Of a stretch of 38,545 bases of DNA, positions 24,093 through 28,477 are shown one piece after another. The translations under genes and the position numbers were made by a program. The number at the start of each line of letters is the position of its first letter. Position 1 is the first letter of the stretch. The stretch is from Candidatus Dojkabacteria bacterium (lineage in GTDB: Bacteria > Patescibacteriota > Dojkabacteria > B142 > OLB20): the NCBI GenBank assembly GCA_020429395.1, contig JAGQLL010000002.1:1-38545 (forward strand), in the 5' to 3' direction. The notes beneath the pieces were generated by a model. The model was not told where the DNA came from. It saw only the letters and a list, made by a program, of their open reading frames with translations, and ran no database searches.

Positions 24093-25190
24093 ATGGATGA
24101 TTTTGATAAGTATAACAAAGAGATCGTAGCCCAATTGCCATTATTGGAAGACTTCTTCTATGATCTTATAAACAATAATTATTCAGAGAAAACGGTGTCT
24201 AACTATCAGAGGGATTTATTAGTTTTCGCTAGTTTCTTATACTCACAGAAATTAAAATTTGATGACATTGGAAAATTAGATCTAATTAAATATAAAGACT
24301 ATTTACGTAATGGTAAATACTTAAAAGATTTAAAATTTCTCTATGATGGAGAAAAAGATGAGGTTAATCCTGAAAATCCACTTCCTGAAACGCAACACAA
24401 AGAATCGAGCCCTAAGGCATCTAGAAGGCTTTCAATGTATCAAGGTAGACTTGGAAGTCGCAGTGTAAACCGAATGTTATCAGCTTTAAGGAGTTATTTC
24501 AGATTTTTAACAGATGCTGATGAAAAAGTTCCAATTCCTGCTGACGCGATAAAATTAATTAAAACTGAAAAAGTTGTTTCAAATGTTGCAGACTTAGACG
24601 AATTAATTTCATTAATTGAGTCTCCAGAAAATTTTGAAAATAAAAAAAATGTTCGTTACAGAAATCGTGCAATGTTGGAATTATTATTTTCAACTGGAAT
24701 GAGAATTTCAGAACTTATCAATTTGAACCTTGAAGATTTGAAACTCGACGAGTCCAAAAAAGTTATACAAGATGACAGAATCTTTATTACCGGAAAAGGA
24801 AAAAAACAAAGATTTGTATATCTCACTGAGCGTGCAAAACATTATCTAGAAAGGTATTTGATGACCCGGGATGATGATTTTAAGGCACTATTTATTCCTT
24901 ATAGAGGTTCTCGTCTAGGTACCGAGAACCCATATGCTGTAAGGGTTTCTGTAAATTATCTGCAATATAAAATTAAACAATATAGGAATCGACTTGGTAT
25001 AAACATACCTACATCCGCACATAGCTTGAGACATGGGTTTGCAACGTATCTGTCAGAGAATGGCGCGAATCCGGCGTCAATTCAACGACTTCTTGGACAT
25101 GAATCTTTGCAAACGACAAGTCGATATGTACACACAAGCGACCGAGTCGCACAAAAATCTCACAAACAATTCCATCCACTAAAAGAGTAG
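24093..25190 (+). CDS. Xer-type tyrosine recombinase/integrase
   Basis: A site-specific recombinase of the XerC/XerD/integrase family, probably resolving chromosome dimers. The catalytic set is complete: R204 (STGMRISEL), a Lys near 235 (GKGKKQR), H310 and R313 (HSLRHGF), H336 (LGHESLQTTSRY) and nucleophile Y345. The N-terminal SAM-like DNA-binding domain is interrupted by an extra charged segment at about residues 74-118, which explains the 365-residue length against about 300 for XerD. It is the only gene here with a clear Shine-Dalgarno-like AAAGAGGG before its ATG. It forms its own unit: a promoter and long leader in front, and a terminator that overlaps its stop codon. A mobile-element integrase is less likely because no other mobile genes are nearby. 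Confidence 0.88.
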   Translation: MDDFDKYNKEIVAQLPLLEDFFYDLINNNYSEKTVSNYQRDLLVFASFLYSQKLKFDDIGKLDLIKYKDYLRNGKYLKDLKFLYDGEKDEVNPENPLPETQHKESSPKASRRLSMYQGRLGSRSVNRMLSALRSYFRFLTDADEKVPIPADAIKLIKTEKVVSNVADLDELISLIESPENFENKKNVRYRNRAMLELLFSTGMRISELINLNLEDLKLDESKKVIQDDRIFITGKGKKQRFVYLTERAKHYLERYLMTRDDDFKALFIPYRGSRLGTENPYAVRVSVNYLQYKIKQYRNRLGINIPTSAHSLRHGFATYLSENGANPASIQRLLGHESLQTTSRYVHTSDRVAQKSHKQFHPLKE

Positions 25191-25209
25191 GGATCCCCTA
25201 CTCTTTTTA
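25181..25209 (+). terminator. Strong intrinsic terminator overlapping the recombinase stop codon
   Basis: A perfect 12-bp stem is formed by AAAAGAGTAGGG (25181-25192) and CCCTACTCTTTT (25196-25207) around an ATC loop, continuing into a T-run. The TAG stop of the recombinase (25188-25190) lies inside the left arm. Because the arms end in A4/T4, it could also stop greA transcripts arriving from the opposite strand. Confidence 0.9.
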
Positions 25210-25248: not shown

Positions 25249-25674
25249 TTAGACTGCAGATACTTCTAAAATCTCGATAACCTGCTTACCTGCTGGTGTA
25301 TCAAGTTCTACATAGTCCCCTGCTCTATTGCCATCTAGTGCCAGTGCTATTGGTGATTCTGTTGATATATATCCATTCTGAGTATCAACTTGTGTAGGAT
25401 GTACAACCTTGAATTCGCGCGTACTGCCATTTATACTGACTTTGTACTGTTGTCCAAATGTCTTTGGTAATTCAGTATTCTTCAATGAATCTAATAAGGT
25501 ATCGATTGATTGTTCAAGATAATCCTTCTTGTCTAACAATTCATGCAAGACCGCAGAATCATCTGCATCGTTTTCTTTACGATCTCTTTCGATTTGGGTT
25601 CCAATAGAGTCAATTTGTTTTTTTAAGTCTTGTATCTTTGCAAGTATTTCTTCTCTTGATTTTGCCTTCTTCAT
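25249..25674 (-). CDS. greA: Transcription elongation factor GreA-like
   Basis: GreA enters the RNA polymerase secondary channel and stimulates cleavage of backtracked RNA. From this start the protein has 141 residues, somewhat short of 158. The N-terminal coiled coil (about 1-68) has an acidic tip, KENDADDS, where GreA normally has GDLSENAE. The C-terminal FKBP-like domain shows GYISTESPIALALDGNRAGDYVEL. The frame is open to an ATG at 25740, but those 22 extra residues do not resemble GreA and would run through a terminator hairpin, so I place the start at MKKAKSREE. It lies downstream of gyrA behind its own promoter candidate and an attenuator-like leader. Confidence 0.85.
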   Translation of the reverse strand: MKKAKSREEILAKIQDLKKQIDSIGTQIERDRKENDADDSAVLHELLDKKDYLEQSIDTLLDSLKNTELPKTFGQQYKVSINGSTREFKVVHPTQVDTQNGYISTESPIALALDGNRAGDYVELDTPAGKQVIEILEVSAV

Positions 25675-25689
25675 GTTTTGTTTGTAAAA

Positions 25690-25719
25690 AATAAAAAAAC
25701 CTCTCGTCTTTGAGAGGTT
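25690..25719 (-). terminator. Intrinsic terminator in the greA leader
   Basis: On the minus strand AACCTCTC (25719-25712) and GAGAGGTT (25705-25698) form a perfect 8-bp stem with a six-base loop, followed by T7, A and T6 (25699-25686 region). It points toward greA and ends only about 20 nt before its ATG. It either ends gyrA transcripts or acts as an attenuator. Confidence 0.75.
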
Positions 25720-25751
25720 AAATACAGGGAAAGTATTCACCTCTCAGGTGA
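25711..25751 (-). promoter_or_regulatory. Alternative-pairing segment (candidate antiterminator) of greA
   Basis: A hairpin TCACCT-GAG-AGGTGA is formed at 25751-25737 on the minus strand. Part of its 3' side, TGAGAGGT (25746-25739), is an exact 8-nt complement of ACCTCTCA (25718-25711), the left arm of the downstream terminator plus one base. The two pairings exclude each other, giving the 1:2, 2:3, 3:4 logic of attenuators. Confidence 0.45.
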
Positions 25752-25800
25752 TTAGTGATTTATTCATAATAAAAATTTGTGTGCAACAACTATGCCTCAT
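25744..25800 (-). CDS. Possible 18-codon leader peptide before greA
   Basis: On the minus strand an ATG at 25800-25798 opens an 18-codon frame, MRHSCCTQIFIMNKSLIT, that stops with TGA at 25746-25744. That stop lies inside the first hairpin of the attenuator-like leader. An AAGGA-like sequence lies about 14-18 nt upstream, a poor distance. Short frames arise by chance in any leader, so this rests on position alone; adjacent Cys codons are the only notable composition. Confidence 0.2.
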   Translation of the reverse strand: MRHSCCTQIFIMNKSLIT

Positions 25801-25865: not shown

Positions 25866-25882
25866 AAATAATACAATTTTTT

Positions 25883-28477
25883 TTATACAATAGCAATAGC
25901 GCTCACCTCATCGCCCTTCTCTAGGGACATTAGGCGTACTCCTGCAGTTTGTCTACTTCGTTCTGGAAGGTCATTAGTTGGAGTTCTGAGTGCTTTTCCA
26001 ACCTTACTTATGATTAGTAAATCCAATCCAGGATGATCAAATATTCTTGCTGTGGCTAAATATCCAGTTTTTTTATTTATTCTCGCTGCATATACCCCCT
26101 GCCCTCCTCTTTTTTGTCTAGGGAATTGCGACAATTTGCTCACCTTACCATAACCATTTCTTGAAATTGTTAGTAATAAATCTTCTTGATTACGAACCAC
26201 ATCCATTGCTATAACAAAGTCTCCGGGGTTTTTAAACAGAATTCCACGTACACCCATTGTGTCTCGTCCCGTAGGTCGAACATCTTTTTCGTGGAAGCGG
26301 ATTGATCTTGCTTGTTCAGTAATAAGAAGAACTTCATCATCTCCATTTGTAGGTTTTACCCAAGCTAATTCGTCTTCTTTCGATAACTTAATAGAGATTA
26401 AGCCATTTGTTCTAATATTGCTAAAATCTTCGATGGCTGTTTTCTTTACTGTTCCTAATTTAGTAGCCATGAAAAGATATTTGTATGGTTTTTTCTCACG
26501 TTTTTCTTCTCCTTCCTGAATAGTGTCTTCGTCATATAGCTTCCCATCTTCTCGTTTGCTCAATATGCTAGTCACAAGTTCGTTCTGATCAATGTTTATC
26601 AAATTGATAATTGCTTGTCCTTTTGCTGTTCTACCAAACTCAGGTATCTCATATACCTTCTTGAAGAATACTCGTCCTCGATTTGTGAAAAATAAAATAT
26701 CATCATGTGTGGAACAACTTAAAATATGAGAAACACCATCGTCTTCTTTTGTTCCCATACCGGTCTTACCTTTTCCACCGCGTTTTTGTTGTTTATAAGT
26801 ATTTTCATTAATTCTTTTTATGTATCCTTGTTCGCTCACAGTAACAAAAACATTTTCTTTGTGTATCAAATCCAATTCCGAGAATTCTCCAACTTTGCCT
26901 TTATGCAACTTTGTCCTTCTCTTATCTGAAAGCCTTTCTTTAAGTGATGTAAGTTCTTCATCAATAGTTTTTATAACCATATCTGGTGTTGTAATTAATT
27001 TGATCAGTTCTGCAATTGTTTTCTTTATTTGCTGATATTCTTCTTCAATTTTTTGTCTTTCAAGTGCGGCAAGTTTTCGAAGTTGCATATCAAGAATTGC
27101 AGTTGCTTGAATTTCACTTAAGGCAAATTTCTTAATTAAATTAGTTTTAGCAGTATCTGCATCTTTTGAACTTCTGATTGTATTGATTACTTCATCTAGA
27201 TTGTCTAGGGCAATCATCAAACCTTCGAGAATATGTTCCCTTTCTTTTGCTCTAGCAAGATCAAATTCTGCTCTTCTAATAATTATTTCCTGTCTATGAG
27301 TTATAAATAATTCGAGAATTCTTTTTAGGTTTAGTAATTTGGGTTCACCATTAACCAATGCTAACAGGTTCATATTGAAAGTTGTTTGCATTTCGGTATA
27401 TTTGTACAGCTTGTTCAATACAGTATTTGGGTTTCCATCTTTTTTGATATCAATTACAACTCTAATCGTTTTAGTTGATTCGTCTCGTAAATCTGCAATA
27501 CCTATAATCTTTTTATCTCTGTGAAGATCTGCAATTTTTATTACTAGATTAGATTTATTAACCTGATAAGGAAGTTCGGTTACTACAATTCTAAATTTAC
27601 CTCCGGCTCTTTCTTCAATATGTGCTACTGCTCTCATTAACACTCTTCCTCTTCCCGTGGCATATCCGCGAATTATTTCTGCCTGATCGTACATCTCCGC
27701 TCCTGTAGGGAAATCCGGCGCAGGGATAAATTTCACTAGGTCTTCGATTGTCGTTGATGAGATGAATTCAGGAAATCTATTTTTTGGTAATTTTTGTAAA
27801 TCCTCAACAGTTCTAATATCTTTGGCATACTTTAAGTCAAGTTGGCTATAATCAAATTCATTCCCGATTTCAATCATAGACTTCATACCATCTACAATTT
27901 CTCCTAAATTATGAGGAGGGATTTTTGTTGCCATACCGACAGCAATACCTTCTGCACCATTTAGTAATAAGTTAGGTAGTAAGGATGGTAATAAATTTGG
28001 TTCTGAGTAACTTCCGTCGTAAGTTGGTATGAAATCAACAGTATTCTTGTCTAGATCCTGCAGAATTTCTAAAGCATTTTTCCCAAGCCTTGATTCTGTA
28101 TATCTCATGGCTGCAGCAGTATCACCATCGATTGAACCGAAGTTTCCTTGGCCATCGATAAGTGGATATCTGAAACTGAAATCTTGAGCCATACGGACCA
28201 TAGCGTCGTATACAGCAGTATCACCGTGAGGATGGTATTTACCGATTACTTCTCCAACTGTTCTAGCAGATTTTTTATAACTCTTGCTTGGTAAGAAACC
28301 TTGTCGATACATAGCGTAAAGGATTCTCCTTTGTACTGGTTTTAGACCATCTCTTACTTCTGGGAGTGCTCTTGCAACAATAACGCTCATGGCGTAATTG
28401 ATGTAAGAAGTAGACATCTCATCTACAATGTTTCTTGAATTTATTGTTCCTGTAATTTTTTGATCTTGATCTGCCAT
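25883..28477 (-). CDS. gyrA: DNA gyrase subunit A
   Basis: GyrA is the DNA-cleaving subunit of gyrase. The 864-residue protein has catalytic Tyr126 in [12 protein letters not shown] and the quinolone-pocket segment [17 protein letters not shown], with Thr87 and Asp91 at the positions equal to E. coli Ser83 and Asp87. The breakage-reunion and coiled-coil domains are complete. The C-terminal beta-pinwheel contains the GyrA box as QKRGGKG, which identifies GyrA rather than ParC. It starts 10 nt after the gyrB stop, on the same transcript. Confidence 0.97.

Follow-up and report, generated by a model that had tools for sequence, protein, structure and literature searches.

A probable leader-peptide attenuator before a GreA/Gfh1-type paralogue in Dojkabacteria, and similar leaders across the CPR

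Ribosome-mediated attenuation, as in the amino-acid operons trp, his, leu and pheA, relies on a short ORF that ends at the 5' arm of an antiterminator and on a middle segment common to this antiterminator and to an intrinsic terminator placed before the gene; the leader described here shares all of these features. A 2010 survey, at which time leader-peptide systems were known in Proteobacteria and Actinobacteria, added bacilli and found attenuators to be frequent before greA and rnk genes in Proteobacteria, bacilli and Clostridia, with a leader peptide unmentioned (PMC2965389). E. coli greA is autoregulated via the leader RNA GraL (PMC6829880), and for the Bacillus subtilis bmrB leader the level is set by rare codons and induction is brought about by translation inhibitors (PMC4191407). 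Since CPR bacteria are hard to grow, how they regulate their genes has hardly been explored. A literature search that left most subscription papers outside its reach found no paper linking leader-peptide attenuation with CPR or Patescibacteria, in agreement with the first-pass annotation of this locus, which knew of no such leader in CPR; the novelty holds for the CPR but not for the gene family, as attenuators before greA-family genes are known in other phyla (PMC2965389). Here we describe what is likely a ribosome-mediated transcription attenuator of the trp/his mechanistic class that would control a GreA/Gfh1-type secondary-channel paralogue in Dojkabacteria, located in a 38,545-nt stretch of Candidatus Dojkabacteria DNA that was analysed as a whole (the window; contig JAGQLL010000002.1).

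Leader and gene downstream of gyrA

All leader features lie on the minus strand of the window. A promoter-like site (TTGCTA-17-TATTAT, 25868-25896) overlaps the stop codon of the upstream gene, gyrA (25883-28477), and precedes a leader ORF of 18 codons from ATG (MRHSCCTQIFIMNKSLIT, 25744-25800) that has equivalents in six other genomes and lacks a good Shine-Dalgarno site. The leader TGA (25746-25744) falls within a first hairpin read in the sequence (segments 1:2, TCACCT-GAG-AGGTGA, 25737-25751) and belongs to an 8-nt segment, TGAGAGGT (25746-25739), that is exactly complementary to ACCTCTCA (25718-25711). The antiterminator extends beyond these 8 bp, as segment 2, its 5' arm (25733-25746), combines TGAGAGGT with the inner helix GAATAC and its 3' arm (25711-25725) combines inner GTATTT with ACCTCTCA, resulting in a 14-bp hairpin with one bulge. 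Segment 3 (25719-25711) is common to the antiterminator and to the intrinsic terminator (segments 3:4, 25698-25719), in which AACCTCTC-AAAGAC-GAGAGGTT forms a perfect 8-bp stem followed by the U-tract T7 A T6 (25686-25699), whose first T-run ends about 18 nt before the start of the downstream gene (25674). The 18-codon frame, the first hairpin, the 8-nt complement and the perfect terminator match the first-pass annotation base for base. The predicted energy of the antiterminator alone is -17.2 kcal/mol versus -11.5 kcal/mol for the terminator. The 5' part of the leader RNA also carries a motif, TTCGTT[AG]..TATATA (25835-25805), that occupies the same place in L041, L042 and L044 and is common to genomes G000 (that of the window) to G003 and partly to G006. 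A second terminator (25181-25207) lies between the downstream gene and a convergent tyrosine recombinase gene (24093-25190).

The downstream gene (25249-25674, minus strand), the presumed target of regulation, had initially been read as greA. Its 141-aa product has the Pfam GreA_GreB C-terminal domain and scores 47 bits against the NCBIfam greA model, below the cut-off of 139. A profile built from seven relatives found a GreA/Gfh1 chimera, Gfh1 and GreA as its best PDB matches, and the predicted structure (mean pLDDT 82, pTM 0.50) shows a long coiled coil and a C-terminal domain whose best fold matches are GreA and Gfh1; by profile and fold, both proteins fit the paralogue about equally well. 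At the tip of the coiled coil, the window copy reads NDADDSA and its nearest relatives [SNQ]EED. The catalytic acidic pair of GreA (D..E) is not kept at the tip in this family, in which the first position is variable and the second is Asp, and its members differ at the acidic position that corresponds to Asp41 of GreA, a point of difference from Gfh1 and Rv3788. The same genome encodes a canonical GreA on another contig (G000:C19) that retains the tip GDLSENAAY, from a gene that starts a few nucleotides after the preceding ORF, without a leader. Owing to the sub-cut-off greA score, the altered tip and the presence of canonical GreA elsewhere, we rename the gene: it is a GreA/Gfh1-type paralogue and not canonical greA. 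By eye, no such leader precedes the GreA-like genes of the order that lie away from gyrA (L005, L006 and L008), and a scan of viral contigs for the paralogue found none.

Judging from its sequence and modelled fold, the paralogue would act as a secondary-channel RNA polymerase factor with either GreA-like or Gfh1-like activity. Gfh1 binds in the secondary channel and is a polymerase inhibitor despite acidic residues at its tip (PMC4598747). The inhibitory GreA homologues Gfh1 and Rv3788 have a GreA fold with a coiled coil, as does the paralogue, and the tip NDADDSA is closer to DDYDDSG of Gfh1 than to the GreA motif, although the identity of the paralogue to Gfh1 and Rv3788 is only 20-25%.

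Conservation, alternative pairing and the proposed switch

The order gyrA, leader, paralogue is kept in seven of the ten genomes sampled from the order (WS6/Candidatus Dojkabacteria), with gyrA as the synteny anchor in all seven and a gap of 183-305 nt between gyrA and the paralogue. Since paralogues outside the genus share only 30-42% identity with the window copy, a gap free of constraint would be expected to have lost all recognisable similarity. In each of the seven (about six independent paralogue leaders in the genomes examined), the end of gyrA carries a promoter-like site, and a short ORF and a CCTC[TC]C segment follow, before a terminator that immediately precedes the start codon. The promoter-like sites read TTGACA-17/18-TATACT in G008 and G009 and TTGACA-17-TAACAT in G006, and are weaker in G002 and G003 (TTGCAA-18-TAACAT). 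The leader stop codon overlaps or adjoins the antiterminator arm in six of the seven, and in G002 it precedes the arm by no more than 7 nt and remains inside the assumed ribosome footprint; the start of the leader ORF is uncertain in G006. Thus, absence of conservation in relatives, which had been named as the outcome that would speak against the attenuator, is not what we observed: ORF, stop position, antiterminator and terminator are all kept in the seven genomes.

Both the terminator and the antiterminator use the CCUCYC segment in all seven genomes, and in G006 the three segments are altered jointly, from GAGAGG/CCTCTC/GAGAGG to GGGAGG/CCTCCC/GGGAGG. Between G000 and G001 the leader ORF is 91% and the terminator 96% identical, compared to 68% for the loop between segments 2 and 3 and 59% for third positions of gyrA. 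Within the family, a relationship among the leader peptides can be recognised (MRHSCCTQIFIMNKSLIT, MRNCCLTNKMIFINKTG, MQNTHLCKMVIKATSG). Pooled, the seven peptides contain no Glu (0 versus 10 expected), and codons with an initial G are underrepresented (21/139 versus 32%). Pairing was counted sequence by sequence, as a MAFFT alignment of the leaders misregisters segment 2 in G002 and G003. The four mutually exclusive segments proposed earlier are all present in the window, but only three of them are conserved: the first hairpin (1:2) is limited to the genus, being found only in G000 and G001, and G002 has a different pairing. We dropped a reinitiation model, as the second short ORF on which it relied after segment 2 (MFTKPLKF in G003, for instance) lacks conservation.

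The antiterminator pairing is better than that of dinucleotide-shuffled sequences in six of the seven leaders (p <= 0.02; p = 0.000 for the window leader), with p = 0.09 for the seventh, and the exact complementary runs are 6-9 nt long. The competing structures are of similar predicted energy, -11 to -19 kcal/mol for the antiterminator and -11 to -14 kcal/mol for the terminator. The leader arrangement is not due to chance. These findings bear on one alternative, that the stem is a plain terminator of the gyrBA operon, that the paralogue has its own promoter beyond it, and that the alternative pairing is a by-product. The location after gyrA and weak promoter-like matches near the paralogue gene are compatible with such an arrangement, but in seven genomes the stem immediately precedes the gene, roughly 135-250 nt past gyrA and with a promoter-like site and an ORF ahead of it, and the antiterminator both beats shuffled sequences and covaries. 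We therefore regard a plain terminator as very improbable. Still less probable is that a ligand- or tRNA-binding RNA, a riboswitch or T-box, drives the switch and that the ORF is incidental: an Rfam search of the leader returned chance-level matches only, even at E<=5, the T-box model RF00230 was not among them, and comparison of the leaders revealed no conserved folded element upstream of segment 2, whereas the ORF is conserved. What speaks for it are T-box-like matches elsewhere in these genomes, the best at 91 bits against a cut-off of 93. The full-length matches (85-91 bits, Rfam cut-off 93) are at G009:C128:1489, G008:C6:8637, G008:C16:12709 and G004:C196:6193, and suggest that divergent T-boxes exist beside leader peptides in Dojkabacteria.

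We infer promoter use, leader translation and switching from this anatomy as follows. Transcription would begin at the end of gyrA and the 18-codon leader would be translated. An undelayed ribosome reaching the stop codon would cover segment 2 with its footprint and leave segment 3 free to pair with segment 4, forming the terminator and stopping transcription about 20 nt before the gene. When the ribosome lags upstream or has not loaded, segments 2 and 3 would pair as the antiterminator and the factor would be made, so that slow translation of the leader would raise the level of the factor. In folding predictions with a ribosome footprint at the leader stop codon, all seven leaders give the terminator a probability of 0.95-0.99. 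Moving the A-site back by five codons is predicted to lower this value to 0.04 in G000, 0.10 in G006 and 0.14 in G009, and to 0.43-0.81 in G001, G008 and G002. At equilibrium the terminator is favoured at every ribosome position in G003 and mostly so in G002, and kinetics must therefore do the work in these two leaders. Co-transcriptional folding could still choose between the pairings in G003, because segments 2 and 3 are synthesised before segment 4.

Leaders of the same design across the CPR

An unbiased scan for an exact hexamer in the order X...rc(X)...X followed by a T-run, over a background of 0.94 Mb from four related genomes (three relatives plus the window), gave three matches, each with a leader ORF and with a gene directly after: besides the window leader and its sister, there was a new leader in OLB20 that precedes a different gene. 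For larger samples we used pattern searches with a reversed-pattern control, which were cleaner than a sequence-only covariance model. Among 86 genomes of the class, the GRGAGG form gave 14 matches (control, 0) and the GGAGG form 22 matches in 18 genomes (control, 0), and among 381 genomes of the phylum there were 26 matches in 23 genomes versus 2 in the control.

Many peptides encoded in these leaders can be read directly against the gene that follows. A GLLLLRS leader stands before leuS, LMMVMMMQNL before metG, FTTTTTG before thrS, RRR before argS, and FCCCLCN before a small ORF and cysS (the latter read from sequence, not by family search). NFFFFAN and NWFFFTFA leaders precede prephenate dehydratase genes, SFFFFTS precedes a PheS-like fusion, a leader with a single Trp precedes trpS and one with two His precedes hisS. 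An MMM leader precedes a SAM hydroxide adenosyltransferase-like gene, and Ile- or His-rich leaders precede M20 peptidase genes. The most enriched residue was the cognate one in 8 of the 11 leaders before synthetase or prephenate dehydratase genes (12 of 200000 permutations). Leader peptides that match the amino acid of a downstream synthetase or biosynthesis gene are found across Patescibacteria (loci L121-L163). L160 and L162 precede what we judge from sequence to be rpsB-like genes and are probably ribosomal-protein leaders, so not every match to the pattern is a switch of this type. Conversely, as only one segment sequence (GGAGG/GRGAGG) was searched, the true number of matched leaders is probably larger than found.

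Several further loci deserve mention. The genome of the window holds a second attenuator, L115 (G000:C39:14676), similar to L116 (G001:C4:102839). At both loci a GCS2-like gene follows the leader M[KN]KQIFVKIFNYYYSH, whose triple Tyr suggests that tyrosine is sensed. The related leaders L118 (G002:C3:179575) and L127 (G003:C27) end in LIFVWA[DN]SAWEV, and their downstream genes have no Pfam match. Attenuators also occur in tandem, with two successive Met-rich leaders at L134/L145 (G008:C5:48359 and 48500) and two successive Ile-rich leaders at L117 (G005:C19), the second of which has GCGGAG for GGAGG.

These leaders also bear on a ribosome-free alternative modelled on what has been proposed for the E. 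coli greA leader, in which the factor or polymerase pausing would shift the balance between termination and read-through, and the leader RNA may act in trans. Attenuators are frequent before greA and rnk genes in other phyla (PMC2965389), E. coli GreA autoregulates via GraL (PMC6829880), and these leaders resemble ours in placing a terminator and an antiterminator before a GreA-family gene and release a short leader RNA, as ours would (PMC2965389, PMC6829880). They differ in having no reported leader peptide and in responding to GreA itself rather than to translation, and an Rfam search at E<=5 revealed no homology between them and the window leader. Here, by contrast, conservation extends to the ORF, to the place where it stops and, among members of the family, to the peptide, and sister leaders match the amino acid of the downstream gene, which makes such autoregulation improbable at this locus. 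Conservation in seven genomes and the cognate-codon look-alikes instead support the original proposal that the leader is an attenuator whose pairings would be selected by a ribosome translating the short frame.

Candidate cues and comparison with known systems

Pooled over the paralogue leaders, Cys occurs 8 times versus 1.0 expected (P=7.6e-6, uncorrected for the 20 residues, with the residue picked after inspection of the peptides and with leaders within the family sharing ancestry). Cys ranks first by enrichment in G000-G003, and the leaders of G000, G001 and G003 contain Cys-Cys(-Cys). The signal is weak in G008 and G009, in which one Cys codon is the last codon and for this reason cannot serve as a stall site in this geometry, and no Cys is present in the G006 leader. 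At 1.2-1.9 per 1000, no codons of the genome are rarer than those for Cys. Since Cys tops the ranking in G000-G003 but is absent from G006, the two best candidates for the cue that would slow the ribosome in the genus of the window, and the most likely ones, are a shortage of Cys-tRNA and a general slowdown at rare Cys codons.

The second of these candidates can be taken further, to a switch of the same anatomy that acts as a general sensor of translation rate, comparable to B. subtilis BmrB, and not as a sensor of a single amino acid. The basal level would then depend on rare codons, and the factor would rise whenever translation is blocked. This reading opposes the sensing of cysteine within the attenuator that we favour, and the probability we give it, somewhat short of even, overlaps with that of the attenuator as a whole. 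The rarity of Cys codons fits a general sensor, as does the BmrB precedent for rare codons and translation inhibitors (PMC4191407), and peptides outside the family have no common single-residue run; on the other hand, the enrichment of Cys in the paralogue leaders is specific, and similarly built sister leaders bear unmistakable single-residue runs.

DksA/TraR was not detected in any of the ten genomes from the order, and in most of them we saw no clear RelA/SpoT either, so that an alternative path from translation to RNA polymerase would be of use. These absences make ribosome-read control of a secondary-channel factor attractive, but they prove nothing. A bolder and more doubtful extension of the attenuator, which we offer tentatively, is that translation speed is wired to RNA polymerase in these CPR bacteria: amid CPR-wide leader-peptide attenuation, a stalled or scarce ribosome would switch on a Gfh1-like factor that retunes transcription, as a ribosome-read substitute for the stringent response.

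The comparative evidence points to wide use of leader-peptide attenuation in the CPR and to leaders that reveal which amino acid they sense; such peptides could be used to predict which amino acids reduced genomes must monitor. In one order the same device precedes an RNA polymerase factor instead of an amino-acid gene, and lineages without DksA thereby become a setting in which to test whether translation status is linked to RNA polymerase.

Compared to the attenuators of amino-acid operons, most of the paralogue leaders are without a run of a single control codon, and their segment 1 hairpin, a usual but inessential element of the class, is not conserved; their presumed target is an RNA polymerase factor and their host lineage is the CPR. 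The bmrB leader of bmrCD is similar in being a translated leader with alternative stem-loops and a terminator before the gene, and in using rare codons with no single sensed amino acid, whereas its terminator lies inside the BmrB ORF and its target is a drug transporter (PMC4191407). A leader switch before amino-acid genes throughout the CPR is apparently previously unreported. The proposed mechanism belongs to a known class; new are its polymerase-factor target and its CPR lineage.
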